In this document: one piece after another, positions 26,861 to 43,212 of the stretch
How positions within the stretch are numbered: position 1 is the first letter of the stretch
How the letters are laid out: every line of letters begins with the position of its first letter
DNA from: Salinarimonas sp.
GTDB taxonomy: Bacteria; Pseudomonadota; Alphaproteobacteria; Rhizobiales; Beijerinckiaceae
NCBI GenBank assembly: GCA_020832565.1
Contig: JAFIEI010000006.1
Span: 50,384-114,383, forward strand
Length of the DNA stretch: 64,000 nucleotides
Direction of reading: 5' to 3'
Notes under the pieces: generated by a model
Seen by the model: the letters and a program-made list of their open reading frames with translations, nothing else
Database searches by the model: none
What the model was told of the DNA's origin: nothing
Made by a program: the position numbers and the translations under genes

Positions 26861-28087
26861 ATGCTTCACAGACGTAACATTATAACGTTGCTGGCGGGCA
26901 CCATGCTCGTCGGCGTGAGTGCCGCGCCCGCCATGGCGCAGGAGCGTGTCTCGGCCGTCACCACCTTCTCGATCCTCGGAGATCTCGTCTCCCAGGTCGG
27001 CGGCGAGCGCGTCGATGTGACCACGCTGGTCGGCCCGGATGGCGACGGCCACGTCTATTCGCCGAGCCCGGCCGATGCCCGCCGCCTCACCGAGGCCGAT
27101 ATCGTCTTCAAGAACGGGTTGCTCTTCGAGGGCTGGATCGACCGGCTGATCGATTCCTCCGGCACGCAGGCCCCGGTCATCGCCGTCGCCGAGAATATCG
27201 ACGCGATCCCCGATGCCGGCCACGGTCACAGCCATGACGATCACGGGCATGACGATCATGGTCATGATCATGATGATCACGGTCACGATCATGACGATCT
27301 CGGGCACGGGCATGACGACAATGGCCACGGCCACGACGATCACGGGCACGGGCATGACGACAATGGCCACGGTCATGATGATCACGGTCACGATCATGAC
27401 GATCACGGCAATGACGATCACGGCCACAGCCACGATGACAACGATCACGGGCATGATCATGACGATCACGGGCATGACGACAATGGCCACGGTCATGATG
27501 ATCACGGTCACGGCCATGACGATCACGGCCATGCTCATGGCGATGATGACCATGTCCACGGCGATTACGATCCGCATGCCTGGCAGGATGTCGGCAATGT
27601 AAAGGTCTATGTGGCCAATATCCGCGATGCGCTGATCGCGCATGATCCCGACGGTGAGGAACTCTATCGCGCCAATGCCGAGGCCTATATCGCCGAGCTC
27701 GCGGCACTCGACGCCGATATCCATGCTGCCGTGGCGGAGCTGCCGGAAGGCGCGCTGGTGGTCACCAGCCATGATGCATTCCGCTACTTCACCCACGCCT
27801 ATGGCCTGGAATTCGACGCCCCCGTGGGCACCTCCACCGAGGTCGAGGCGACGGCGCGCGACGTGGCGCGGCTGATCGACACCATCCGCGCCAACGACAT
27901 CCGCGCGGTCTTCGCCGAATCGCTCACCGATGCCCGCCTGATCGAGCAGATTGCCCGCGAGGCCGGGGTGCCGGTAGCCGGGACGCTCTACTCGGATGCA
28001 CTTTCGCCGCCCGACGGCCCAGCGGGGACTTACATCGACATGATGCGACACAATATAAGTCTCATCAGCGAAGGCCTCGGGTCCTGA
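26861..28087 (+). CDS. znuA: Zinc ABC transporter substrate-binding protein with very long His/Asp-rich loop
   Basis: VSAVTTFSILGDLVSQVGGERVDVTTLVGPDGDGHVYSPSPADARRL...HGDYDPHAWQDVGNVKVYVANI...VVTSHDAFRYFTHAYGLEF; about 115-residue HGHDDH-type loop. Confidence 0.93.
   Translation: MLHRRNIITLLAGTMLVGVSAAPAMAQERVSAVTTFSILGDLVSQVGGERVDVTTLVGPDGDGHVYSPSPADARRLTEADIVFKNGLLFEGWIDRLIDSSGTQAPVIAVAENIDAIPDAGHGHSHDDHGHDDHGHDHDDHGHDHDDLGHGHDDNGHGHDDHGHGHDDNGHGHDDHGHDHDDHGNDDHGHSHDDNDHGHDHDDHGHDDNGHGHDDHGHGHDDHGHAHGDDDHVHGDYDPHAWQDVGNVKVYVANIRDALIAHDPDGEELYRANAEAYIAELAALDADIHAAVAELPEGALVVTSHDAFRYFTHAYGLEFDAPVGTSTEVEATARDVARLIDTIRANDIRAVFAESLTDARLIEQIAREAGVPVAGTLYSDALSPPDGPAGTYIDMMRHNISLISEGLGS
27228..27575 (+). 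repeat. Degenerate coding tandem repeat (HGHDDH-type) with an internal 120-bp period
   Basis: caatggccacggtcatgatgatcacggtcacg occurs at 27361 and 27481, exactly 120 bp apart; throughout made of catgacgatcacgg-like units. Confidence 0.9.
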
Positions 28088-28260: not shown

Positions 28261-29259
28261 ATGTCCGATATGCAGGCGCAGACTGCCGTTGAAGCCGAAG
28301 CCGGAAAAATCCCCGTCACCGTGCTGACCGGATATCTCGGCGCCGGGAAGACCACGCTCCTCAACCGCATCCTCACCGAGAATCACGGCAAGCGCTACGC
28401 CGTCGTCGTGAACGAGTTTGGCGAGGTGGGCATCGACAACGAGCTCGTCGTCGGCGCCGACGAGGAAGTGTTCGAGATGAACAACGGCTGCATCTGCTGC
28501 ACCGTGCGCGGCGATCTGATCCGCATCATGGACGGGCTGATGAAACGGCGCGGCAAGTTCGACGCCATCATCGTCGAGACCACGGGCCTCGCCGATCCAG
28601 CCCCCGTCGCCCAGACCTTCTTCATGGATCAGGACGTGGCGGAAGCCGCGCGGCTCGATGCGGTGGTGACCGTCGCCGATGCCAAATGGCTGGCCGAGAG
28701 GCTGAAAGACGCGCCGGAAGCCAAGAACCAGATCGCCTTTGCCGATGTGATCCTGCTCAACAAGGTCGATCTCGTCAGCGAGGCCGAACTCGCCGATGTC
28801 GAGGCGCGCATCCGCGCGATCAACCCCTATGCCCGGCTCCACCGCACCACCAAATGCGATGTCGAGATCGCGCAGGTTCTTGAGCGCAATGCGTTTGATC
28901 TCGAGCGCATCATCGAGCTCGAGCCCGATTTCCTCGAGGAAGGCCATCACCACCATCATGACGAGGAGATGCAATCGATCTCCATCACCCATGAGGGCGA
29001 GGTCGATCCCGAAAAATTCCTGCCCTGGATCTCCGAACTGACGCAGGTCCAGGGCCCCGACATCCTGCGCTGCAAGGGCATCGTCGCCTTCCCCGACGAG
29101 CCCAAGCGCTTCGTCTTCCAGGGCGTCCACATGATCCTCGACGGCGATGTCCAGGGGGACTGGAAGGCGGACGAGAACCGGCGTTCGCGCGTCGTCTTCA
29201 TCGGCCGCAACCTCGACGAGGCCGCTATCCGCGAAGGCTTCCTCGGCTGCGCAGTGTGA
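28261..29259 (+). CDS. CobW/COG0523-family GTPase (putative zinc metallochaperone)
   Basis: VTVLTGYLGAGKTTLLNRILTENHGKRYAVVVNEFGEVGIDNELV, CICC motif NNGCICCTVRGDL, NKVDL, internal HHHHHDE loop; located after znuCBA. Confidence 0.93.
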   Translation: MSDMQAQTAVEAEAGKIPVTVLTGYLGAGKTTLLNRILTENHGKRYAVVVNEFGEVGIDNELVVGADEEVFEMNNGCICCTVRGDLIRIMDGLMKRRGKFDAIIVETTGLADPAPVAQTFFMDQDVAEAARLDAVVTVADAKWLAERLKDAPEAKNQIAFADVILLNKVDLVSEAELADVEARIRAINPYARLHRTTKCDVEIAQVLERNAFDLERIIELEPDFLEEGHHHHHDEEMQSISITHEGEVDPEKFLPWISELTQVQGPDILRCKGIVAFPDEPKRFVFQGVHMILDGDVQGDWKADENRRSRVVFIGRNLDEAAIREGFLGCAV

Positions 29260-29345
29260 GCGTCGCACCCATGCGTGCATCGCGGCGGGTTTTGGGCTAG
29301 GTGTGAGCGTCCGGCTGAAGGCCGGGCGCGCCATCGGGAGACGTC

Positions 29346-30065
29346 ATGCCGCCACTTTTCGAGGAACTCGACTGGAGCCCAACGCCGATCGGGCCAGTGA
29401 GCCTGCGCCGGCGGCGGGATCTGCGCACCGGCGAAGACGTCTACGAGGTCAAGCTCGGCGAGGAATTCCTCATGTCGAGCCAGTTCACCGTCTCGGAAAT
29501 CGCCCTGGCGCGGTCGGGGCTCGCCCTGTGCGAGGGTGACGCGCTCGACGTCGTGGTCGGCGGTCTCGGCCTCGGCTATACGGCGGTGGAGGCGCTCGCC
29601 GACCCGCGCCTGCGCTCGCTCACCATCGTCGAATATCTCGAACCGGTGATCGGCTGGCACCGCAACCGCCTCCTGCCGCTCGGCGAAACCCTGTGCAACG
29701 ATCCGCGCGCTCGCTTCGTGCCGGGCGATTTCTTCGCCATGAGCGCCGGCGACGGCTTCGATCCGGATCAGCCCGGCCGTCGATTCGACGCGATCCTCCT
29801 CGACATCGACCACAGCCCGGAAGCGCTGCTCGATACGCGCAGCGACAGCTTCTACACGCCGCAAGGCCTGACCGGGCTCGCCCGGCATCTCGCGCCGCGC
29901 GGCGTATTCGGCCTGTGGTCGAACGAGCGCCCTGACGAGCACTTCACCGAAAGGCTCGCCGGCGTGTTCGACGAAGCGCAGGCGCAGATCGTGCGCTTTT
30001 ACAATCCGCTGCAGGACAACGAGGCGGTGCAATGCGTCTATCTGGGGCGCAGGCGGGACGGGTGA
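29346..30065 (+). CDS. Spermidine synthase-like SAM-dependent methyltransferase
   Basis: DVVVGGLGLGYTAVEALADPRLRSLTIVEYLEPVIGWHR...FDAILLDIDHSPEALL...FYTPQGLTGLARHLAPRGVFGLWSNE. Confidence 0.75.
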   Translation: MPPLFEELDWSPTPIGPVSLRRRRDLRTGEDVYEVKLGEEFLMSSQFTVSEIALARSGLALCEGDALDVVVGGLGLGYTAVEALADPRLRSLTIVEYLEPVIGWHRNRLLPLGETLCNDPRARFVPGDFFAMSAGDGFDPDQPGRRFDAILLDIDHSPEALLDTRSDSFYTPQGLTGLARHLAPRGVFGLWSNERPDEHFTERLAGVFDEAQAQIVRFYNPLQDNEAVQCVYLGRRRDG

Positions 30066-30075
30066 GGCCGATATC

Positions 30076-30747
30076 ATGACCGGCGCGCGCCCCTGCCCGC
30101 TTTGCGACGACCCGGCAACGGAGGCATTCGTCACCATCGCCACGCAGAGCTATCATCGCTGCCCGGTTTGCGCCCTGCGCTTTCTCGACCCCGCCCATCA
30201 TCCGGACCGGGAAACCGAGCGCGCGCAATACGCGCTGCACCAAAACGATCCCGACGATCCGCGCTACCGCGCCTTCCTTTCCCGGCTCGCCGATCCGCTC
30301 CTCGCCATGCTCGAGCCTGGTTCGTCGGGTCTCGATTACGGCTGCGGGCCGGGGCCCGCGCTGGCTGCGATGCTGCGCGAAGCCGGGCATGCGGTCGCGC
30401 TCTACGATCCCTTTTTCGCGCCGGATAAACGCGTTCTCGAGGCGAACTACGACTTCGTCACCTGCACCGAGACCGCCGAGCATTTTCACGATCCGGCCCG
30501 CGAATTTGCCCGGCTTGATGCGCTTTTGCGACCCGGTGGGTGGCTTGGTCTGATGACGATCTTCCAGAGCGACGATGCCCGCTTCGCCGGCTGGCATTAT
30601 CGGCGAGATCCCACGCATGTGGTCTTCTACCGGGAAGAAACGGTGCACTGGATCGCCGCGCACTATGGTTGGGAATGCACCATCCCGTGCCCGAACGTGG
30701 CGCTGATGCAAAAGCCCGGTGCAGCAGATCCGGGATCATCGCCGTGA
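30076..30747 (+). CDS. Class I SAM methyltransferase with N-terminal CPLC...CPVC zinc knuckle
   Basis: CPLCDDPATEAFVTIATQSYHRCPVCALRFLD; LDYGCGPGPALAAML...DFVTCTETAEHFHDP. Confidence 0.82.
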   Translation: MTGARPCPLCDDPATEAFVTIATQSYHRCPVCALRFLDPAHHPDRETERAQYALHQNDPDDPRYRAFLSRLADPLLAMLEPGSSGLDYGCGPGPALAAMLREAGHAVALYDPFFAPDKRVLEANYDFVTCTETAEHFHDPAREFARLDALLRPGGWLGLMTIFQSDDARFAGWHYRRDPTHVVFYREETVHWIAAHYGWECTIPCPNVALMQKPGAADPGSSP

Positions 30748-31355
30748 CCAGTTTTCTGCATGAGAGCCGGTTCCGGGCCGTTGCCGGCGTACTGCGCGAG
30801 GCCGGTGCCCGCCATATTCTCGATCTCGGCTGCGGGGACGGCGATTTCATCATGCATCTGCTCGATGATCCGCAGATCACGGCGATCACCGGGGTCGAGA
30901 AAGATGCCGGCGCATTGGAGCGGCTGCGCGCGCGCCTGCGCGGTCATCCCCGCGCCGATCGTGTGGATCTCCTTTGCGCCGACATCACCAGCCCGCCGCG
31001 CGCGATGCCCCAGGCCGATGCGGTGGTGCTGGTCGAGGTGATCGAGCATCTCGATCCGGCTCGGCTGCAAGCGCTGGAGCGCGTTCTTTTGCACGATATC
31101 GCCCCGCCGCTCGCCGTGGTCACGACGCCGAATGCCGAGATGAACCCGCTTCTCGGCGTGAAGCCCGGGCGCATGCGCCATCGCGATCATCGTTTCGAAT
31201 GGGACCGCGCGCGCTTTCGCCTATGGGCGCAAGGGCTCGCCACCCGCAACGGTTACGCCCTCGAGGTTGCCGATATCGCGGGTGCCCATCCGCGATTCGG
31301 CGGCTCCAGCCAGATGGCAGTGTTTGCACAAATCACAATTCAAAGCAGTGTTTGA
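30744..31355 (+). CDS. Stand-alone Hen1-type 3'-terminal RNA ribose 2'-O-methyltransferase domain
   Basis: GTG start overlapping the previous stop (GTGA); ILDLGCGDGDFIMHLL, VVLVEVIEHLD, VTTPNAEMNPLLG, MRHRDHRFEWDRARFRLWAQGLA: ExxEH...H and FEW(T/D)R signature of Hen1. Confidence 0.78.
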   Translation: MTSFLHESRFRAVAGVLREAGARHILDLGCGDGDFIMHLLDDPQITAITGVEKDAGALERLRARLRGHPRADRVDLLCADITSPPRAMPQADAVVLVEVIEHLDPARLQALERVLLHDIAPPLAVVTTPNAEMNPLLGVKPGRMRHRDHRFEWDRARFRLWAQGLATRNGYALEVADIAGAHPRFGGSSQMAVFAQITIQSSV

Positions 31356-31418
31356 TCGCAGACCGAGCCGGCAGCTTCGCTTCATGAAGCTCGAAAAATC
31401 CATGAAACACGACGGTTT

Positions 31419-31790
31419 TCCGGCCCGACCCCTCCATTTGACGGGGGCGTCGCAAAGCCCTTTTTTTTATCCTCGCCCCTGCAATTCAGCCGAGGGGTCA
31501 GCCGCAAACGGTTGACCGAGGGGGACGCCATGACCATCCGACCCGACGCGACGAAGCGCATTTCCAGCATGAAGATCGCCCCGGCATTCGGCCTCGCGCC
31601 GATGATGCTGCCAGCGCCCGGCCCAAGCGTACGATCGAGATGCATCGACGGGAAGAAGAGTGACGCACGGAGATCCGCACCCGCAACTGCGGCGCCGAAG
31701 AGCGCGCCACCGAGTTTCATATCCCGGCTATTCACGACCGCAAGACGCTGGACCATGAGACAGCACCAAACCGCAATACCAGGAGGCCAC
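31419..31790 (+). pseudogene. Degenerate 5' end of a paralogue of the giant secreted protein (duplication remnant)
   Basis: MTIRPDATKRISSMKIAPAFGLAPMMLPA closely matches the signal-peptide start MIIRPDARKRISSLKFALAFGLAPMLLPA of the 36003 gene; upstream non-coding sequence is also homologous to about 35863-36000. Confidence 0.6.
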
Positions 31791-34700
31791 ATGTCGGGCC
31801 ACATCGGAATTGATCCGCATTCGATGCAGCAAGAACACGAGCCATGTCTGGCATCCGGGAGAAAGGCGCTGGCGCTGCGACGGATCAAGCAGGGAGTCTT
31901 TGCCTTTGCCGCCACCAGTTTCCTGACGATTGCAGTTGCTATGCCCTCGCCGGCTCAGGCGCAGAATGACCTTGTGCCTTGCGCGACCGGACCGCTTGAA
32001 CATCTGATGATCAACCAGGAGATGTCAGTCGAGCTCTCCTATCCTCAGGAAGTTCGCTACGTTTCGCCCGGCCCGATCAACTATGAGGGCCTGCCGGCTA
32101 CTCACATCAACAAACAGATTGTCGAGGAAAACGTCGGTCTCATGCAGGTGCCGACTGATACTGTCGGAGCCGTCGTCATAATCTGCGCGAAGGAACCGGG
32201 AATGGATTGGGCGGAAGCCGAAGTCATCATGATGATAGAGGTGCCCGATGGTCGTGGCGATTTCGACATAGTCGCCTTTCTTGGGGAACACGCGCAGGAC
32301 AACAAGTACAGCGGACATGAAATCGGGCTGCACTTGATCACCATCCCCCAAGAGGAATCCCGACGCAGAAGCCTTGTCCGGCGGGCAATGGAAAAGGGGC
32401 TGTCCGAGATAGTCCGGAGCAATACGGTTTCAGAGATTGCAACTGAGGCCGTGCTCGGCGATCCTGATGATCCGGGTGATCCGCTCCATCTCAGCATCCG
32501 CCTGAGTGCGGACGGAGGCGTGATTTCGTCCGAGCCTGCCGTGGCGGATGCGGGCTCCGACGAGCCGGATGCGACCTCCGATCCCGGGCCGTCATCACCC
32601 CCCGGCGAAACCGAAGCGCAGGATGACGGCGGCGTTGTTTCGGACGAGCCATGGGTCGCCGATGAAGAGGTTGAAACCGCCCAGTCCTTCCCCGGCCTGC
32701 CGACCATGCCGGAGATTCCCACGGGGCCGGATCTGAGTGACCTCATTCCGACCATCGACCCGCTCGATACCTCTCAGTTCGTTCCGGATGGGGAGGCCGA
32801 GACCGTCACCGATGGCTATCTGGAGGCGCCGCGCTGGGTCGAGGCCGGGCGGGATTTCACCGCGAGTTGGGATGATCGCCTTCATCGTAATGACCGCGTC
32901 ACGATCGTGCCGGATGGCACCCCGGATGACGAGCGGGGTAGTGGCAGGCAGAATATCCGTGTCGCCAACAACTCGAGCGGCACTCTGCGGGCGCCTGACG
33001 AACTCGGGACCTACGAGGTGCGGTATTACTCCAGCGAGGAAGAGAGCATCCATGCCCGTGTGACGGTCGAGGTTCGCGACCCGTTCATGGACATCGAAGT
33101 CGCCGACGAGGTCGAGGCCGGGCGTGACTTCGAAGTCGAATGGGGCGATCGCCTGCACAGGAATGACCGCGTCACGATCGTGTCGCACGACGCCCCCGAT
33201 GACGAGCGGGGTAGTGGCCGTCAGAATATCCGTGTCGCCAACAACTCGAGCGGCACTCTGCGCGCGCCTGACGATCTGGGGATCTACGAAGTCCGCTACT
33301 GGCGCAACCAGCAGGAGCGCGTCGTTGGCAGCGCCCTCGTCGATGTCGTCGACCCGGAGATTACCCTCGACGCTCCCGATACCACTCATGCCGGTCGTGA
33401 CTTCGAAGTCGAATGGGACGATCGCCTTCATCGCAATGACCGCGTTACCATCGTGCCGCTGGGCACCCCCGACGATGTTCGCGGCAGTGGCCGTCAGAAC
33501 ATTCGCGTCGCCAACAACTCGAGCGGCACACTGCGCGGGCCCGACGAGCTCGGAACGTACGAAATCCGTTACTGGCGCAACCAGCAGGAACGCGTCGTCG
33601 GTCGCGTCATCATCGATGTGGTCGACCCCGATATCATGGTCATGGCTCCGGTTGAGGTCGAAGCGGGAGCAGATTTCCAGACCATGTGGAGCGAGCGCCT
33701 GCACCGCAACGACCGCGTGACCATCGTGCCTGCCGATGATCCCGATGACGAATTGGGCAGCGGGCGCCAGAATATCCGGGTCGGCAGCAACACCTCCGGC
33801 ACCTTGCGGGCACCCTCTGATGAAGGTGATTTCGAGGTGCGCTATTGGCGCAACAGCCAGGAGCGCGTTGCGGGACGGGCGCTGGTCGCGGTCGTTCCAG
33901 AGGGAAGCGATGCCGCTTCAATCAGCGAGGATGAAGACGCTTCGCCAGAGGATCTTATTGCCCTCCTTGAGCGCCTGGTCGACCTGGCGGGGCGCATGGA
34001 CGAGGTGCCGTCAGACGAACAACAAAGCATTCGCAACGAGTTGATCGGCCATGGCCCGTCCGCCCTCGAGATGCTCATCGAATTCGTCGATGACGGTCGT
34101 ATAGAGCCTTGGCAGGCCGCCGGGTTCATGGGGGGCTCCTTCGAAACGCCTCCAACCTCGGCAGTCCGGCCATATACCGGCTTCGTGCCTCAAGCAGGCG
34201 GCGGCGGGCAAATGCCGCAAGGGCAGGCCCCTGCGGGGCAAGTCCCTCAGGGTCAGGTGGCTCCGGATCAGCCCTCCCAGGGGCAGGTCGGCGTGCAGCC
34301 GCAGACTGCTGCACAGACACAGGCGCAAGCTCAAACACAGGCGCAAACACAGGCGCAGGCGCAGCCGCAGGAGCAGGCATCAGCCGAACCGGGTGCGCTC
34401 AGCCCGCAAGACGAGCGGCGCGTGATCATGCTGGTGGCACGGCTCGACGGAGCTTCGCAGGAGGAAAAGGACGAAATCGCTGCCGAACTGGCACAATTCG
34501 GTCCGGCGGCAACGGATATTCTGCTCGAACTGATGCAGGAAGGCCTGGTCGACCGTGCAACCGCCCTGAGCGTCGCCGCTGCGATCGAGACCGGGGACAG
34601 CGCCGGCGCTCCGACGCAGCCATCGCAGGAAGGCGCCGCAGAAGCGTTCACCGAAGCGGCAGGCTACGAACCGGGCGATCCCTCGCAAGCGCTCTCGCGC

Positions 34701-35555
34701 CTGCTGGACACGATGCCGCAAACCGACTCGGTCTTTCCTCCGGGCGGCAATCTCGGACCGCTGACCAAGGCGGTGCTGCTGCTGGAGAACGAGGAAGGCA
34801 TCGCCGATCATGCGCGCTATCGCATCCGCTACGGCATGGAACATCGCTCCGGTCCGCCGGGTTCGGCGGGTTCGCAGCCGCTCCCGTTCAGCTTCGTCCA
34901 GGTCGATCGCTTCAACCTCGGAGAAGTCTTCCGGGACGCGATCGCGGAATCCTTCGGCGAGGCACGCACGCCACCGCCGGAAGCCTTCGGGGCGGGCGAG
35001 CACGTTTCCTACCGTTTCGAATTCCGTCCGATCCAGGGGCGCAGCGCCGATCCGGTCGCCATGAGCCGGCAGGTGATACCGGATGGCGAGGCGCAGGGCA
35101 TGGAGTGTCTCACGCTGAGGTGTCTCCACCTCGGAAGCGTGGGCGAAGGCGCGATTCCCTGGCAGGATCAGGATGGCAGCAACACCGGCTTCGACAGGCC
35201 CTACGAAGACATCCGCAACGGAGTCTACTCCCCTGCGACCATGATGGACCTGCTTTCGCTTCAGTCCGCTGCGGCCGAACTCAGCGACGAGCGGCTGCGC
35301 TGGACGGGATATGAGGGTCCCGAAAGCGTGCAGGGCGGCGAGCCTTTCGTCGAGACCGTGATAGATGTCAATCTCGCTCAGGATTACGGCATCGAGGCGG
35401 TCCTGCATGAGGGGCATGTGATGGATGATTCCATCTCTGCCGTCTGGAAGCGGGCCATCACCTTCCCCGGCGGAGACGATACCCCGCAATTGTCGATGCA
35501 GCGGGCTTTCGAGTGTGCACGCGGTGAACCCAGTTCTGAAGGGCTGTGCCCCTGA
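31791..35555 (+). CDS. Giant secreted multidomain protein A (four Ig-like tandem repeats, helical repeats, novel C-terminal domain)
   Basis: Probable start MSGHIGIDP... after SD aggagg; signal peptide FAFAATSFLTIAVAMPSPAQAQ; repeats W.DRLHRNDRVTIVP...GSGRQNIRVANNSSGTLRAPDELGTYEVRYW; C-term FPPGGNLGPLTKAVLLLENEEG....ECARGEPSSEGLCP. ORF track extends to 31512. Confidence 0.75.
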   Translation: MSGHIGIDPHSMQQEHEPCLASGRKALALRRIKQGVFAFAATSFLTIAVAMPSPAQAQNDLVPCATGPLEHLMINQEMSVELSYPQEVRYVSPGPINYEGLPATHINKQIVEENVGLMQVPTDTVGAVVIICAKEPGMDWAEAEVIMMIEVPDGRGDFDIVAFLGEHAQDNKYSGHEIGLHLITIPQEESRRRSLVRRAMEKGLSEIVRSNTVSEIATEAVLGDPDDPGDPLHLSIRLSADGGVISSEPAVADAGSDEPDATSDPGPSSPPGETEAQDDGGVVSDEPWVADEEVETAQSFPGLPTMPEIPTGPDLSDLIPTIDPLDTSQFVPDGEAETVTDGYLEAPRWVEAGRDFTASWDDRLHRNDRVTIVPDGTPDDERGSGRQNIRVANNSSGTLRAPDELGTYEVRYYSSEEESIHARVTVEVRDPFMDIEVADEVEAGRDFEVEWGDRLHRNDRVTIVSHDAPDDERGSGRQNIRVANNSSGTLRAPDDLGIYEVRYWRNQQERVVGSALVDVVDPEITLDAPDTTHAGRDFEVEWDDRLHRNDRVTIVPLGTPDDVRGSGRQNIRVANNSSGTLRGPDELGTYEIRYWRNQQERVVGRVIIDVVDPDIMVMAPVEVEAGADFQTMWSERLHRNDRVTIVPADDPDDELGSGRQNIRVGSNTSGTLRAPSDEGDFEVRYWRNSQERVAGRALVAVVPEGSDAASISEDEDASPEDLIALLERLVDLAGRMDEVPSDEQQSIRNELIGHGPSALEMLIEFVDDGRIEPWQAAGFMGGSFETPPTSAVRPYTGFVPQAGGGGQMPQGQAPAGQVPQGQVAPDQPSQGQVGVQPQTAAQTQAQAQTQAQTQAQAQPQEQASAEPGALSPQDERRVIMLVARLDGASQEEKDEIAAELAQFGPAATDILLELMQEGLVDRATALSVAAAIETGDSAGAPTQPSQEGAAEAFTEAAGYEPGDPSQALSRLLDTMPQTDSVFPPGGNLGPLTKAVLLLENEEGIADHARYRIRYGMEHRSGPPGSAGSQPLPFSFVQVDRFNLGEVFRDAIAESFGEARTPPPEAFGAGEHVSYRFEFRPIQGRSADPVAMSRQVIPDGEAQGMECLTLRCLHLGSVGEGAIPWQDQDGSNTGFDRPYEDIRNGVYSPATMMDLLSLQSAAAELSDERLRWTGYEGPESVQGGEPFVETVIDVNLAQDYGIEAVLHEGHVMDDSISAVWKRAITFPGGDDTPQLSMQRAFECARGEPSSEGLCP

Positions 35556-35680
35556 GGCGCAGGAGACTTGAAAGGTCGGCGGGTATCGGGCCGCCCTATC
35601 CCGCCGGCCATCACTGATAAACATGACGGGCGTGACCGTGATCTCCTGCATCCGGCGCGCCACAAGAAACGGGGGCAGGC

Positions 35681-35890
35681 ATGTTTCAACGCATCCAGCA
35701 TTTCTTCAACCCGCTCTCGACCAACTGGACGGAGGATCCCGGCGCTCGCGGCGTGGCCAAGATGGCGGCCTTTGTTGAGGTCAAAACCCCAGGCAGCGGA
35801 TCGCAATATGTCGAAAGGGCAATTTCGCCTGCGCGAGAACGGAATAATGCGCGAAACTCGGCAGTTTTCCGGCCTGCCCCCTTCGTTTGA
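35681..35890 (+). pseudogene. Truncated remnant of the DUF3592-like gene
   Basis: MFQRIQHFFNPLSTNWTEDPGARGVAKMAA matches the first 30 aa of the 39713 protein (MFQRIQHFFNTLATNWSEDPGARGAAKMAA), then diverges; 5' flanks are also homologous. Confidence 0.8.
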
Positions 35891-36002
35891 TGGGGGCGTC
35901 GCAGTGTCATTTTTCCTATTCTCGCCGCTGCAATTCAGCTGAGGGGCGTGCCGCAGACGGTGAGCCGAGGGTGACGCCAACGGGGATGCCAAGGGGGGCA
36001 CC

Positions 36003-39000
36003 ATGATCATCCGACCCGACGCAAGGAAGCGCATTTCCAGCCTGAAATTTGCCCTGGCATTCGGCCTCGCGCCGATGCTGCTGCCGGCATTGTCGGGAAG
36101 CGAGAGCGGGCTGATCGTGACACCGGCGCAGGCGGCAGACTGCGCCGAGACGCGGCATATTACGTTCCGCGCGGAGCGCCCCCCCGGCAACGGATTGGTC
36201 ACCTACATGCCGGAAGTGTCGCTTACGGATGACCACATCTTTCAAACAGTGAGTGGCACACGATGCGGCCCTTATGACCGTGTGACGGGCTTCCAGCTGA
36301 TGTCGTCGCAAAGCTCGGTCATGACCATGCCACCGCGCTCGTACAATCTGGTGCATACGGATGTTGTCGGCGATCGTTTCGAGGCGGGCCTCGGATCATG
36401 GCCGGACAGCGACGGCGCTACGGATGTCTTCAACGGGCGCGATCCGCGCGGTCTGTGGCAGGTCGCGCGTGTTCCGCCGCCAGGAAGCGGCTCTGGTCCC
36501 GGCACTGAGCATTTCCGCCTGACCCTTGGACTGGCCGACGATGCGCAGGTGGAGCCTGCAGTTGTTCAGGCGGAAGAGCCGGTGGATGAGGAGGAATCCA
36601 CAGCTTCCGGAGACTTGGAAACCCCAACAACCGGCACCGGTGGAACGAGTGGCGCTGCGAGCAGTTCATCGGGAGCGACGGGCGGGGGCACGGTTGCGGT
36701 TGGGGGAAGCGGATCCAACGAGTCCGAACCGACCGAGGAGCCGATGATTTCGCCGGAGCCCTGGATCGCCGAGGACGAGGATGAGACCGCGAGCACCCTC
36801 GGCTCCAAGCTTCTCGACGCGATGGAGCAGGCCGGGTTTGGCGATCACCCGCAAATGCAGCCCCTGTTTCCCTTGACGCAGCCGGAGCTGTTTTTCGGTC
36901 CTGAAGAGGCCGATCCCGACGGCTATTTAGTGGCGCCGACGACGGTGCCTGTGGGCTCGCGCGTTCCCATCATCCTGACCTATGACGACAGACGCCATTT
37001 CGACAATCTGATCCTCGTGAAAGCAGATGCTCCCGATAGCGCGGTTGGCCGCAATGTCGGTCGAAACTCGCATCTGGTCGGAGACGACGAGGTGGTTCAT
37101 CGCAGGGTGGGCGACACCCCCGGCACTTACGAATTGCGTCTGAGGCGTCATGAAAACTTTGACCGGCGCATCATGGCCCGCAAGCAGATCGAGGTCATCG
37201 ATATCGATGTCGATTTGCAGATGCGCGAGGAAGTCACCGCACGCGAGGATTTCGACGTCTTCATGAATCCGGTCATGGACGGACACCTTTACGTGACGAC
37301 ACCGGATCGGGATCACGATGATCTCATCAACCGCAATGCCCAAAGACAATTGGGCATCGAGGAGGCGGACGGGCCCGGCCTGTTCACGCGCACGGCGCCA
37401 CGCGGTGCCGGCGAATACGAATTGCGCTTCAACTTCAACCCGTCCCCGCGCTGGTCCGATGTCATGGGGCGCGAAGGACGGCTTATGGCCCGCGTACCTT
37501 TCCGGGTGGTGGATGCACCTGCGGCGGATAATGCCGCTGCCGATGAAGCTGAGGAGACTGCAAAGCTCGAAGAGCTCGAAGCAAAGATCACCGCGCTCTC
37601 CGAAGATCTGGAGGAGGTTACCGTCGCACAAACGGAGGGATTGCGTGACGAGATCAGCGCGCTCGGCCTGCCTGCGCTGGCCATGCTGATCGCCATGCTC
37701 GATCGCAACGCCATCGCGCCAGAACTGGCCTTTGCCATCACCGCGCCCGCGCCACCTACGCAATGGGGAGCGGGCCCGGGCGCAATGTCACCGGTCGCAC
37801 CCGCAGCCGCCGCTGCGACACCGGTAGCCCCTATGGCGCAACCCCAGCCCGTCCAGCCCGCGCCCGCAGCAGGCGGCGGCGCCGTCGCCTCCAGCCCGGT
37901 GGCCGCCGGCAGCCTCTCTGCGCAGGACGAGCGCCGCATCATCATGCTGATCACCCGGCTCAACGGCGTGGTACCGGAGGAGCAGCAGCCGATCATCGAC
38001 GAGCTTGCCGAGTATGGGCCTGCTGCAACGGATATCCTGATCGAAATGATGCAGGAAGGTCTTATCTACCGCCCCCTCGCCCTGCGCGCCGCCGCCGCGA
38101 TCGAACCAGACGGAGAGGCACCCGCCCCGCAGGCGCAGATGCAGCCGGCGGCTCAGCAGCCCTCGGGCTACCAGGTCATCGGCGTCGCGCCGGACGACAT
38201 GCTCAATGTGCGCGATCGCGCGGGCGTCTCCGGCAGCACCGTGATCGGACAGCTTGCCCCCGATGCGCGTGACGTGGTGCGCAGCGGCGATGTCCAGAAT
38301 GTCGGCGGGCGCGACTGGTGGCATGTGCGTCATCCCACGCTGCCCCAGCAGGGCGGCTGGGTGAATTCGCGCTTCCTTTCCGCCGAGGCGGGACTCGCAG
38401 CGGAAGAGTTGTCCTACCGCGTCATCGGCGTGGCTTTGGATGACGCGCTCAATATCCGCTCCTTCCCGGGAACCGACGGCGAGATCATCGCCCGTGCTTC
38501 CCCGGATGCGGAAGGGCTGCGCTGGAACGGCCAGAGCGCCGCTGTGGCGGGCGCTACCTGGTGGGAACTCGTCCATCCGGATCTGCCGGGCAACACCGGC
38601 TGGGTCAATTCGCGCTTTCTCGAGGCGCAGGAGGGCGTGGCCGTCACCTCCGTCGCACCCCCGAGGCTCGAGGGGTTGCAGCCGCCCTTTACGGAAGCGG
38701 AAGGCTACGCGACCATCGAGGCGGATCCGACGGTGAACCGGCTGCTCGACACCCTGCCGCAGACCTCCTCGATCTTCCCGCCCGGCAACGAGTTCAATCC
38801 GTTGACCAAGGCGGTGCTGCTTCTGGAGAACGAGGAAGGCGTCGCAGACCATGCACGCTACCGCATCCGCTACGGCCTGGAGAGGCGCCACAACAGTTTA
38901 GGCGGGCCGCCCGTCCCCTTCAGCTTCGTTCAGGTCGACCGGTTCAATCTCGGCGAGGTGTTTCGCGAAGCGATCGCGGAATCCTTCGGTGAGGCACGCA

Positions 39001-39587
39001 CGCCACCGCCGGAAGCCTTCGGCGCCGGCGAGCATGTCTCCTATCGTTTCGAATTCCGTCCGATCCAGGGGCGCGTCGCCGATCTCGTCGCCGCGAGCCG
39101 GCAGGTGATACCCGACGCGGAGGCGCAGGGCATGGAATGCCTCACGCTGATGTGCCTCCATCTGGGCAGCGTCGGGGAGGGCTCCATGACCTGGCGCGAT
39201 GATGCGGGCCGCGGCACCGGTTTCGATCGGCCCTACGAGGATATCCGCAACGGTGTCTACACGCCGGCGACCATGATGGACCTGCTCACGCTTGAAATCG
39301 GTGTGTCGCGCATCAGCGATGGCCGGCTGATCTGGAGCGGTTTCGAGGAATCCGAGAGCGTCCGGCCCGGCGAGCCCTTCATGGAGACCATCTTGGACGT
39401 CAATCTCGCCCAGGATTACGGCATCGAGGCCGTGCTGCGCTGGGGCAATCTGATGGATGATTCCGTGGCGGCCATCTGGAGCCGCGCCATGACCTTCCCC
39501 AGCGGGGATGCGGAGCCTCATCTGGCGACCGAGCGGTTCTTCGAATGCGCACGCGGTGAACCCGGCGCCGAAGGGCTTTGCCCCTGA
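36003..39587 (+). CDS. Giant secreted multidomain protein B (P-domain-like N-terminus, Ig-like repeats, helical repeats, two SH3b, novel C-terminal domain)
   Basis: Signal peptide ending TPAQAA; two SH3b copies GYQVIGVAPDDMLNVRDRAGVSG... and SYRVIGVALDDALNIRSFPGTDG... each ending GWVNSRFL; C-terminus nearly identical in pattern to protein A. Confidence 0.8.
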   Translation: MIIRPDARKRISSLKFALAFGLAPMLLPALSGSESGLIVTPAQAADCAETRHITFRAERPPGNGLVTYMPEVSLTDDHIFQTVSGTRCGPYDRVTGFQLMSSQSSVMTMPPRSYNLVHTDVVGDRFEAGLGSWPDSDGATDVFNGRDPRGLWQVARVPPPGSGSGPGTEHFRLTLGLADDAQVEPAVVQAEEPVDEEESTASGDLETPTTGTGGTSGAASSSSGATGGGTVAVGGSGSNESEPTEEPMISPEPWIAEDEDETASTLGSKLLDAMEQAGFGDHPQMQPLFPLTQPELFFGPEEADPDGYLVAPTTVPVGSRVPIILTYDDRRHFDNLILVKADAPDSAVGRNVGRNSHLVGDDEVVHRRVGDTPGTYELRLRRHENFDRRIMARKQIEVIDIDVDLQMREEVTAREDFDVFMNPVMDGHLYVTTPDRDHDDLINRNAQRQLGIEEADGPGLFTRTAPRGAGEYELRFNFNPSPRWSDVMGREGRLMARVPFRVVDAPAADNAAADEAEETAKLEELEAKITALSEDLEEVTVAQTEGLRDEISALGLPALAMLIAMLDRNAIAPELAFAITAPAPPTQWGAGPGAMSPVAPAAAAATPVAPMAQPQPVQPAPAAGGGAVASSPVAAGSLSAQDERRIIMLITRLNGVVPEEQQPIIDELAEYGPAATDILIEMMQEGLIYRPLALRAAAAIEPDGEAPAPQAQMQPAAQQPSGYQVIGVAPDDMLNVRDRAGVSGSTVIGQLAPDARDVVRSGDVQNVGGRDWWHVRHPTLPQQGGWVNSRFLSAEAGLAAEELSYRVIGVALDDALNIRSFPGTDGEIIARASPDAEGLRWNGQSAAVAGATWWELVHPDLPGNTGWVNSRFLEAQEGVAVTSVAPPRLEGLQPPFTEAEGYATIEADPTVNRLLDTLPQTSSIFPPGNEFNPLTKAVLLLENEEGVADHARYRIRYGLERRHNSLGGPPVPFSFVQVDRFNLGEVFREAIAESFGEARTPPPEAFGAGEHVSYRFEFRPIQGRVADLVAASRQVIPDAEAQGMECLTLMCLHLGSVGEGSMTWRDDAGRGTGFDRPYEDIRNGVYTPATMMDLLTLEIGVSRISDGRLIWSGFEESESVRPGEPFMETILDVNLAQDYGIEAVLRWGNLMDDSVAAIWSRAMTFPSGDAEPHLATERFFECARGEPGAEGLCP

Positions 39588-39712
39588 CGCGAACGGGATT
39601 CGAAGGATCGGCGGGTATCGGGCTGCCCGGTCCCGCCGACTCGAATCAAGAAAATGACGGGCGTGGCCGCGATCTCCTGCATCGGGCGCGCCAATGACAA
39701 AAGGGGGCAGGC

Positions 39713-40732
39713 ATGTTTCAACGCATCCAGCATTTCTTCAACACGCTCGCGACCAACTGGTCGGAGGATCCCGGTGCACGGGGCGCGGCCAAGATGGCAG
39801 CCGGCGGCGTGCTCGTTGCGGAAGGCATTTTCGGCGTGGTCCGCAGCCGCCGGGGGCGCAACGGCAACCGCCAGCGCGGCGGCATACTCGGCGGCATATT
39901 CGGCATCGTCTTCGGTATCATCTTCATCAATATCGGCGGCTTCGTACAGTCGGGGGCCATTGAAGATGCGGTCGAAACCACAGGTCGCGTCGTCGCCGTC
40001 GAGCGCGCGGGCACCAGCGGCGAGAACAATACCCAGATGTATCGCACCCGCATCTCCTATACGGTCGACGGGGAGAGCTACGAATTCAGCCCACGCGGCC
40101 GGAGTTCCTGGAGGCCCAATGTCGGGGCCGAGGTTGATGTGGCCTATTCCCGGTCCAACCCCTCCAATGCGCAACGCATCGGCGGCATCTATGACTGGGG
40201 TCCGCGCGCCTTCAGCTGGGCCGGTTGGTTCGTGGTGATAACCTCAGTGTTCAGCCTGCTGATCAGCATCGCCCTGATCGCCTTCGGCATCTGGCTGTTC
40301 CAGCAGGGGCGCGCAGATCGCCGATTGAGCGGCGAGGAGCGCAGCTTCTTCGGTGACCTCTTCGCCATCGCCAAGGATGTGCGCTCGGGCAATATGGATG
40401 TCTCGCAGACGGCGGCGGGTATGTCCGGTGCGCAGCAGGGCTCCGGCGGCTGGATGGGTGCCGCCATGAGTGCTGCGGGAATGAGTGCTGCAGGAATGGG
40501 GGGTGCAGGAATGGGGGGTGCAGGAATGGGGGGTGCAGGAATGGGGGGTGCAGGAACGGGCGGAGGGTCGAGCACCGCCGCATCGACGCAAGCGCCCCCG
40601 CCGCCGGGCAATACGGCACCTCCCGCGAGCGCTGCCGCGCCCCCGGGCTGGATGCTCGATCCCGATGACGACAGCATGCTGCGCTGGTGGGACGGGCAGG
40701 CCTTCACCGAGCAGCGCCGCCCGCGCGATTGA
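39713..40732 (+). CDS. DUF3592-like membrane protein with Gly/Met repeat and C-terminal DUF2510-like WWDG motif
   Basis: TM segments; VETTGRVVAVERAG...YRTRISYTVDGESYEFSPRGRSSWRPNVGAEVDVAYSRSNPSNAQ; C-term PPGWMLDPDDDSMLRWWDGQAFTEQRRPRD. Confidence 0.75.
   Translation: MFQRIQHFFNTLATNWSEDPGARGAAKMAAGGVLVAEGIFGVVRSRRGRNGNRQRGGILGGIFGIVFGIIFINIGGFVQSGAIEDAVETTGRVVAVERAGTSGENNTQMYRTRISYTVDGESYEFSPRGRSSWRPNVGAEVDVAYSRSNPSNAQRIGGIYDWGPRAFSWAGWFVVITSVFSLLISIALIAFGIWLFQQGRADRRLSGEERSFFGDLFAIAKDVRSGNMDVSQTAAGMSGAQQGSGGWMGAAMSAAGMSAAGMGGAGMGGAGMGGAGMGGAGTGGGSSTAASTQAPPPPGNTAPPASAAAPPGWMLDPDDDSMLRWWDGQAFTEQRRPRD
40502..40561 (+). repeat. 15-bp in-frame tandem repeat (GGTGCAGGAATGGGG) x4
   Basis: Three perfect copies and one variant (ggtgcaggaacgggc), preceded by a degenerate copy; encodes GAGMG units. 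Confidence 0.95.
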
Positions 40733-40739
40733 GCGGGAT

Positions 40740-41594
40740 CTAGCGGAACAGCATCACCGGCACGAGGCAGGAGCGCACCATCTCGCTCGTCGTGGAGCCG
40801 ATGATCAGGCTGCGGATGCGCGAATGGCCGTAAGCGCCCATGACGAGCAGGTCGATCTTTTCGGCCTCGATCGCCTTGATGATGACGCTCTCGGGCTGGC
40901 CTTCGCGAACCTCCGCAGTGACGCTCAGACCGGAATCGCGCAAGACCGACTCGGCGGTCTGCAGCCGCTCGCGGACGGTGGCCGAGGGCTGGCCGACGGT
41001 CAGCAGGCGGCATTCCATGCCGGAGAAGAGCTTGCCGGCGGCGATATGGCGAACCGCCTTCATCACGCTGTCACCGCCATCGAACGCGATCATGAAGCGG
41101 TTCTGCGGCTTGAAGGCGCGTGAGGCGACGAGGATCGGCTTGGTGCAGGCACGCACCACGCGCTCCAGATTGGAGCCGAGATGCAATTTGGCGAAATCCG
41201 CCGCTTCGCCGCGCTTGCCGATGATGACGAGGGGCGCATCGGTTTCGGCTTTCTGGAGTGCCTCGACGAGATCGCCGTTGCGCAGGCGTGTATTCACAGT
41301 CTCGACACCCTGATCGCGAATGCGCGCACGTGCCTCTTCGAGGATCAGGCGTCCGCGCTTCTGGGCGAGCCGGGCGCGCTCCTCGTCGAAGGCGGCCAAT
41401 TCGGAAAGCAGGTTCTCGCGCGCATCGACATTGATGGCACCCGAGAGATCAGCCGGTGCGGTCGAGACGCCGCGGCGGCCGAGCACATGAAGCACTTCGA
41501 CCGGATAACCGGTCTTCTGGGCCACCCAGGCCGTATGGTCGCAAACGCTCTGCGAGTAGATCGAACCGTCGATCAGCGCCACCAATGCGGACAT
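40740..41594 (-). CDS. Universal stress protein family (tandem UspA domains)
   Basis: MSALVALIDGSIYSQSVCDHTAWVAQ; second domain ending VMGAYGHSRIRSLIIGSTTSEMVRSCLVPVMLFR. Confidence 0.93.
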   Translation of the reverse strand: MSALVALIDGSIYSQSVCDHTAWVAQKTGYPVEVLHVLGRRGVSTAPADLSGAINVDARENLLSELAAFDEERARLAQKRGRLILEEARARIRDQGVETVNTRLRNGDLVEALQKAETDAPLVIIGKRGEAADFAKLHLGSNLERVVRACTKPILVASRAFKPQNRFMIAFDGGDSVMKAVRHIAAGKLFSGMECRLLTVGQPSATVRERLQTAESVLRDSGLSVTAEVREGQPESVIIKAIEAEKIDLLVMGAYGHSRIRSLIIGSTTSEMVRSCLVPVMLFR

Positions 41595-41727
41595 GCCGCC
41601 TCCCTTTCAATCTTGCTTGCACGCGCCACGCCGCAACCGGCGATCATCACGTCTCGTTGATGGCAGGATGCCGGGTTTTCTTGCGCAAAACCAGCCCAAA
41701 CCGGATGAATCCCGCAGAGATCCGGCG

Positions 41728-43212
41728 TCAATGGCCCATCAGTTTTTCCATGGCGCCGGGTTTGTCGTGGATGCCGAGGCGGTCGACGAGGGTCTCGCTG
41801 GCTTCGTTCAGACCCACGAGTTCAACCTCCGCACCCTCGCGGCGGAACTTGAGCACCACCATGTCGAGCGCCGAGACGCTGGAAATATCCCAGATATGAG
41901 CGCGCGAGACGTCAATCGTGACCTTCTCCAGCGCCTCGCGGAAATCGAAGGCGGCAGAGAAATCCTCGACCGAGGCGAAGAAAAGCTGCCCCTCGACCCG
42001 GTAGGTGCGATGCGCCCCGTCCGTCGAGACAGTGGAGGTGATGCGGAAGATCTGGGCGATCTTCCAGGCGAAGAAAATCCCTGAGAGCAGCACGCCGACG
42101 AGCACGCCGATCGCAAGGTTGTGGGTGCCGACCACGGTGATCACGGTGGCCAGCATCACCACCGAGGAAGAACGCGGGTGGTCGCGCAGATTGCGGATCG
42201 AGCTCCAGGAGAACGTCCCGATCGAGACCATGATCATGACCGCCACGAGCGCGGCCATCGGGATCACCCCGACCCAGTCGCCGAGCACCACCACCATGAA
42301 GAGCAGGAAAGCGCCGGCGGTGAAGGAGGAAAGACGCCCCCGGCCGCCCGATTTCACGTTGATGATCGACTGCCCGATCATGGCGCAGCCGGCCATGCCG
42401 CCGATGAAACCCGTCGCCGTATTGGCCACGCCCTGCGCCACGCATTCCTGCTTCTTGGCGCTCGGCGTATCGGTCAACTCGTCGACGATCGTCGCCGTCA
42501 TCAGCGATTCGAGCAGGCCCACCGCCGCGACCGCCGCCGAATAGGGCAGGATGATCATCAGGGTCTCGAGATTGAGCGGAATATCCGGGATCAGGAAAAC
42601 CGGCAGCGTCGAGGGCAGTTCGCCCATATCACCGACAGTGCGCAGGTCGAAACCCATCATCAGGGAGACCGCCGTGAGCACCACGATACAGACCAGCGGG
42701 CTCGGCACTGTCTTCGTCACCATCGGCAGCAGATAGATGATTCCGAGTCCGGCCGCGACCATCACATAGGTGAGCATAGGCACGCCGGTAAGTTCCGGGA
42801 TCTGGGCGAGGAAGATCAGGATGGCGAGCGCATTGACGAAACCGGTCATGACCGATCGGGAGACGAAGCGCATCAATTGCGCCACGCCGGTCACGCCGGC
42901 CACGATCTGCATCAGCCCCGCCAGAACCGTCGCCGCGAGCAGGTATTCCAGCCCGTGGTCGCGGGCAAGCGTGATCATCAGAATCGCGGTTGCCGCCGTT
43001 GCCGCCGAGATCATGCCGGGGCGTCCGCCGACAATGGCCGTGATCACCGCGATGGAGAAGGAGGCATAGAGTCCGACCTTGGGATCGACCCCGGCGATGA
43101 TCGAGAAGGCGATCGCCTCGGGGATCAGCGCCAGCGCAACCACGATGCCGGCGAGAACATCGCCACGAATATTGCCGAACCATTCCCGGCGCTGGCGAAT
43201 CCAGAAATCCAT
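41728..43212 (-). CDS. SulP family anion transporter with STAS domain
   Basis: [36 protein letters not shown]-terminal [37 protein letters not shown]. Confidence 0.93.

Follow-up and report, generated by a model that had tools for sequence, protein, structure and literature searches.

The Pfam families DUF3592 and DUF2510 are both of unknown function; in the literature searched there was no mention of DUF2510 or of DUF2259, and DUF3592 was mentioned once. Polymorphic toxins combine a constant N-terminal part with a variable C-terminal tip. Proteins with a VWA domain and Ig-like repeats are exported, and in several genomes their genes lie near genes of the domain described here.

The window, a stretch of 64,000 nt from Salinarimonas sp. 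(family Salinarimonadaceae, Hyphomicrobiales), belongs to an assembly of 4.09 Mb (99% complete, 110 contigs). Two congeners, G002 and G003, were used as comparison genomes. The window contains two large genes in tandem, A1 and A2. The first unit consists of the following features.

31393..31615, forward strand: 5′ region of unit 1 with leader (ATG 31530), duplicated at 35842-36088 (blastn); leader kept in G002 and G003
31530..35555, forward strand: gene A1, open ORF with conserved start; 31791, the start in the sequence-only reading, is in the same frame
31884..31964, forward strand: A1 export-signal segment GVFAFAATSFLTIAVAMPSPAQAQ (hydrophobicity scan and sequence), with putative cleavage site
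31965..32522, forward strand: A1 head, no relative detected among other heads
32844..33922, forward strand: four A1 Ig-like repeats of 273 nt, direct repeats homologous to those of a Nitratireductor VWA protein
33936..34136, forward strand: A1 helical segment 1, resembling A1 helical segment 2
34398..34583, forward strand: A1 helical segment 2 (LSPQDERR...), 63% identical to the A2 copy and 89% to G002
34644..35552, forward strand: A1 C-terminal domain (CTD), with a family alignment of 16 sequences
35682..35772, forward strand: DUF3592-gene stub, about the first 31 codons, 91% nucleotide repeat of 39699-39802

The second unit has these features.

35842..36088, forward strand: 5′ region of unit 2 with leader (blastn against unit 1)
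36003..39587, forward strand: gene A2, ORF with signal peptide, head, two Ig-like, two helical and two SH3 units, and CTD
36138..36560, forward strand: A2 head, related to the G003 head only
36912..37517, forward strand: A2 Ig-like units, at 75-90% identity to G002 and with a weak relationship to the A1 repeats
37914..38099, forward strand: A2 helical segment 2 (segment identity comparison)
38169..38381, forward strand: A2 SH3 unit 1, 76-89% identical to SH3 units in G002, G003 and W635
38415..38627, forward strand: A2 SH3 unit 2, with the Pfam SH3_3 match
38682..39584, forward strand: A2 CTD, 73% identical to the A1 CTD
39713..40732, forward strand: DUF3592/DUF2510 membrane-protein gene

Approximately 70 bp between the stub and unit 2 (35773-35841) have no counterpart in unit 1. 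An Rfam search of positions 29000-43000 gave no match. Upstream of the module, a very His/Asp-rich exported ORF that is metal-binding-like and by sequence ZnuA-like (26861-28087) precedes the gene of a GTPase of COG0523 type that contains a run of His (28261-29259). The region looks like a zinc-handling cluster, since in G003 an ABC ATPase and a permease lie upstream.

The ORFs 31791-35555 and 36003-39587 are open and carry export signals, in agreement with the sequence-only reading of two large exported proteins, though its label ‘giant’ is generous for products of 1254 aa (A1) and 1194 aa (A2). The A1 frame is indeed open from 31791, but the start conserved across members of the genus, together with the leader, is at 31530. 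On this ground 31791 may be an internal start, but the clear hydrophobic export segment found in a hydrophobicity scan comes after 31791, so that either could be the true start.

A1 is composed of leader, export signal, head, four 91-aa Ig-like repeats, two helical segments, a Pro/Gln linker and the CTD; it has no SH3 unit. A2 has only two Ig-like units, which are diverged, plus a pair of SH3 units that the sequence-only reading overlooked. The match of A2 to bacterial SH3 (PF08239) reached 25 bits against a curated cut-off of 27 (E = 2.1e-5), and close homologues are present in G003 and in W635 (Rhodobacteraceae bacterium, QVQC01000072). The paired helical segments resemble each other within each protein (shuffle z of 12.7 in A1 and 4.0 in A2). 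No relative of the A1 head was detected among the heads of A2, G002 and G003, while the A2 head is related to the G003 head (shuffle z = 7.0; about 0 or below against the A1 and G002 heads). Pfam gave no VWA match in either protein. BLASTP of A1 against A2 matched the CTDs (311 aa, E = 3e-147, 71% identity), and the Ig and helical segments matched as well, though less strongly, so a shared C-terminal region with helical segments, as had been described, is indeed present. The earlier description of a DUF3592-like gene or its remnant after each large gene also holds: a full gene follows A2 and a stub, with 76% amino acid identity to residues 1-34 of the full protein, follows A1.

On sequence evidence, the CTD (∼300 aa; family alignment of 16 divergent sequences) forms a real family of exported domains that the searched libraries lack. 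Profile search covered three genome sets, each of them including the window's own genome, and detected the CTD in 14 of 398 for the order, 3 of 385 for a class sample and 3 of 399 for a phylum sample; one plasmid record among 72,556 also has it. There was no acceptable sequence or profile match in Pfam, NCBIfam, PHROGs or PDB, nor any match for the CTD or the proteins in viral contigs, phages or PADLOC. An AlphaFold2 model built from eight sequences was of moderate quality (mean pLDDT 60.5, pTM 0.67), and with this model a PDB fold search found no match (best E 0.063, listed TM-scores ∼0.2 or below); a run with a Devosia sequence first had a lower pLDDT, 46.6. The sequence-only reading had been unable to place this domain in a family, and no well-characterised family emerged from the libraries searched. 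A match in Desulfobacterales (L028), an 88-aa fragment in one frame, was not counted.

The CTD occurs in several architectures: behind an export signal alone in Devosia and relatives; with an export signal and SH3 in W635 and in G953 (48% GC, outside Alphaproteobacteria); with a Gmad2-like domain, twice, in G431; and after DUF2259 in G574. In the 16 sequences 15 positions are invariant, including the Cys pair C155 and C160, and the polar residues R58, Y63, S83, N91, H120, R124 and D261 are strictly conserved. Several members, A1 and A2 among them, end in ECARG...CP. In one profile comparison, two stretches of the CTD aligned with each other at E = 3e-4, which hints weakly at an internal repeat. 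With dN/dS of 0.13-0.36, the CTD is under purifying selection, also in A1, whose own partner is lost.

Such conserved polar residues and the Cys pair would suit a reading of the CTD as an exported enzyme that the Ig, SH3 and head modules merely target to its substrate, and the single-domain exported versions would fit as well. Still, the CTD matches no enzyme family and the moderate-quality model retrieved no solved fold; we regard an enzyme as unlikely.

The protein encoded downstream of A2 matches DUF3592 (PF12158; residues 89-154, E = 1.3e-7, 32.7 bits against 25.3) and DUF2510 (PF10708; residues 311-338, E = 1.9e-7, 31.2 bits against 24). One predicted TM helix precedes the DUF3592 domain (54-83) and another follows it (166-199), with basic flanks inside. 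The protein also has a linker rich in Gly, Ala and Met (GMGGA repeats), encoded by a 15-bp tandem repeat at 40456-40560; the repeat is shorter in G002, and none was seen in G003. In each of the four intact cases (window, G002, G003 and W635) the CTD gene is immediately followed by this gene, so the neighbourhood survey does place the two genes together; a search of the class sample (384 other genomes) found no homologue, and none was detectable in 15 CTD-bearing genomes outside the genus. The partnership proposed in the sequence-only reading thus stands for one CTD subgroup, the genus and W635, and does not extend to the family as a whole. Since the gene was found only downstream of CTD genes in this subgroup, its product is, to judge from its placement, a dedicated partner of that subgroup.

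A large exported repeat protein with a C-terminal domain, a small membrane-protein gene directly downstream and stub copies recall a contact-dependent or polymorphic toxin system, in which the CTD would be the toxin and the DUF3592 protein its immunity protein. However, the conserved end of A1 and A2 is the C-terminus, the reverse of the toxin arrangement, and many Hyphomicrobiales have a stand-alone CTD gene but no DUF3592 homologue; the toxin-immunity reading therefore fits poorly. Purifying selection on the A1 CTD, despite a partner reduced to a stub, and the absence of a PADLOC match make it less plausible still, and we consider it very improbable.

A partner that is placed more widely may be the VWA + Ig-repeat protein, at present the best lead. 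On plasmid pOM-1 of Nitratireductor sp. OM-1 a VWA + Ig-repeat gene is followed, after 50 bp, by the CTD gene; G953 has an operon-like cluster of VWA-Ig, DUF2799 lipoprotein and SH3-CTD genes; in W635 a VWA-Ig gene is 4.5 kb from the CTD gene on the same contig. The A1 Ig repeats match the Nitratireductor VWA protein (WP_162742408.1) by BLASTP at E = 3e-48 (36% over 354 aa); the A2 Ig-like units match weakly (E = 3e-4). Given homology of the A1 repeats and those of the VWA protein, parts that are adjacent elsewhere are fused in the window. No VWA-Ig protein was detected in the window's own genome. Among CTD-negative genomes, VWA-Ig genes were found in 8 of 10 from other families and 2 of 19 from the same family; because they are this common without the CTD, co-occurrence is uninformative and only adjacency or fusion counts. 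About 16 CTD neighbourhoods were inspected, and VWA-Ig genes number one to a few per genome; by rough estimate, adjacency by chance in two of the neighbourhoods is unlikely (∼1 in 1000).

Several other genes recur near CTD genes. Upstream of the CTD gene, Nitratireductor (L092:4747-5292), G211 and G121 (L041:2011-2634; L042:8613-9413) have a conserved gene for a small exported protein. W635 and G574 encode a response regulator, a histidine kinase and a molybdopterin-binding-like exported protein next to the CTD gene (L023:3411-6590, L039:9666-12657), and in G029 and G211 VWA-Ig genes are within a few kb of a gene for a molybdopterin-binding-like protein. The trio was dropped as direct evidence, the last protein being present in 8 of 9 genomes tested, mostly elsewhere.

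Alternatively, this could be an accessory envelope family that is lineage-specific and lacks a dedicated partner, with all its gene neighbours incidental. The spread of the CTD is patchy: leaving aside the window's own genome, it is present in 13 of 397 genomes for the order and in 2 of 384 for the class sample. In G001 the module is replaced, ahead of the neighbouring USP gene, by a cupin-like gene, and the single-domain CTD genes of Devosia lie beside housekeeping genes, with neither a DUF3592 homologue nor a neighbouring VWA gene. The constant downstream position of the DUF3592 gene, extending to another order, and the VWA-Ig linkage in unrelated genomes argue against this explanation, which we judge improbable.

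The two units share nucleotide repeats at 34874-35173/38906-39205 (84%), 34698-34840/38739-38881 (81%), 35667-35770/39699-39802 (91%) and 31516-31615/35989-36088 (87%). Blastn widens them to 34698-35770/38739-39802 and, at 74% over 247 columns, 31393-31615/35842-36088. A short 5′ sequence before both genes, TTTGAYGGGGGCGTC, was considered as a dispersed element and rejected, as it belongs to the duplicated unit. The CTD dS is 0.72 for A1-A2, 0.78 for A1-G003 and 0.66 for A2-G003; for neighbouring genes of the window genome and G003, which has a single copy at the syntenic place, it is 0.41-1.01. As 0.72 falls inside this range, the pair is about as old as the split from G003, or older. Recent tandem duplication was rejected on this dS, on the unrelated heads of A1 and A2 and on Ig blocks of ∼40% identity.

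Different segments have different nearest relatives, which points to segment exchange. Identity of the Ig blocks is 60-75% for A1-G003, 75-90% for A2-G002 and ∼40% for A1-A2, while helical segment 2 with the CTD is 89% identical between A1 and G002. A1 and A2 are thus best described as an old mosaic pair whose segments were apparently swapped by recombination. Duplicated units are there, as the sequence-only reading had it, but an origin by duplication is too simple in view of the dS and of the segment-wise relationships. The mosaic suggests that surface or periplasmic proteins diversify module by module, via recombination between tandem paralogues. The G002 gene, central to this argument, is on a 9.3-kb contig whose flanks are unlike the window, with no synteny, and the module is closer to the window than some G002 core genes are; this contig could be misassembled or misbinned. 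A tyrosine-integrase-like ORF (L030, 8848-9280), ∼400 bp downstream of the DUF3592 gene, ends the contig and may be a sign of a mobile island carrying the module, or of misbinning.

Between W635 and G003 dS is 0.46 for the CTD and 0.61 for the DUF3592 gene, compared with 1.49 for a nearby W635 gene and its G003 homologue. Transfer of the cassette between orders would be the simplest reading of this difference, which involves one comparison gene.

The explanation we favour, to which we give about an even chance, is an envelope-tethered scaffold or adhesin with exchangeable heads. A1 and A2 would be Sec-exported multi-domain envelope proteins, with the product of the downstream gene as their inner-membrane partner. 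The export signals of both, and those of the single-domain proteins of Devosia, agree with this; the label ‘envelope-associated’ given earlier is a reasonable inference. The N-terminal head, which varies, and the Ig-like repeats, which would form a stalk, would extend outward, while the paired helical segments, with the SH3 units in A2, might touch peptidoglycan or neighbours. The conserved CTD would dock to envelope partners, the DUF3592 protein in the window lineage and a VWA + Ig-repeat protein in others; the DUF3592 protein could hold the scaffold or adhesin at the membrane via the CTD. The old gene pair with recombined segments suggests that one cell would show heads and stalks of two kinds on a shared base. 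The location, the docking, the wall binding and the adhesive or scaffold role are all predictions. A broader proposition, which we put forward as doubtful, is that the CTD is a new extracytoplasmic domain to which VWA-Ig proteins dock generally throughout Pseudomonadota; the parts would have merged into one chain in Salinarimonadaceae, with loss of VWA and gain of a dedicated DUF3592/DUF2510 anchor, in a cassette that crosses orders and reshuffles heads and stalks.

What is new is a domain family, apparently exported and missing from the searched libraries, with VWA-Ig and DUF3592/DUF2510 proteins as candidate partners; these give several domains of unknown function a testable context together. 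Compared with known systems, the downstream protein matches both Pfam families over the curated cut-offs; homologues of this protein were found here only beside CTD genes. Each polymorphic toxin has a cognate immunity gene beside it, whereas the 15 CTD genomes outside the genus have no detectable DUF3592 homologue and A1 has only a stub; immunity genes of another kind may be present. The Devosia-type single-domain proteins (e.g. L025, Devosia indica) share with A1 and A2 the CTD (∼30% identity) and an export signal, but lack the Ig, helical and SH3 modules, the DUF3592 gene and the ECARG...CP tail. W635 is like the window in that it has an SH3 unit, a CTD that is 59-78% identical to those of the genus, and the DUF3592 gene downstream; unlike A1 and A2, its SH3-CTD protein has no head, Ig or helical segments, and the VWA-Ig gene is on the same contig. 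The VWA + Ig-repeat proteins resemble A1 in export and homologous Ig-like repeats, and in Nitratireductor the gene adjoins a CTD gene; they differ in the VWA domain, in place of which A1 and A2 have helical segments, SH3 (A2) and the CTD.
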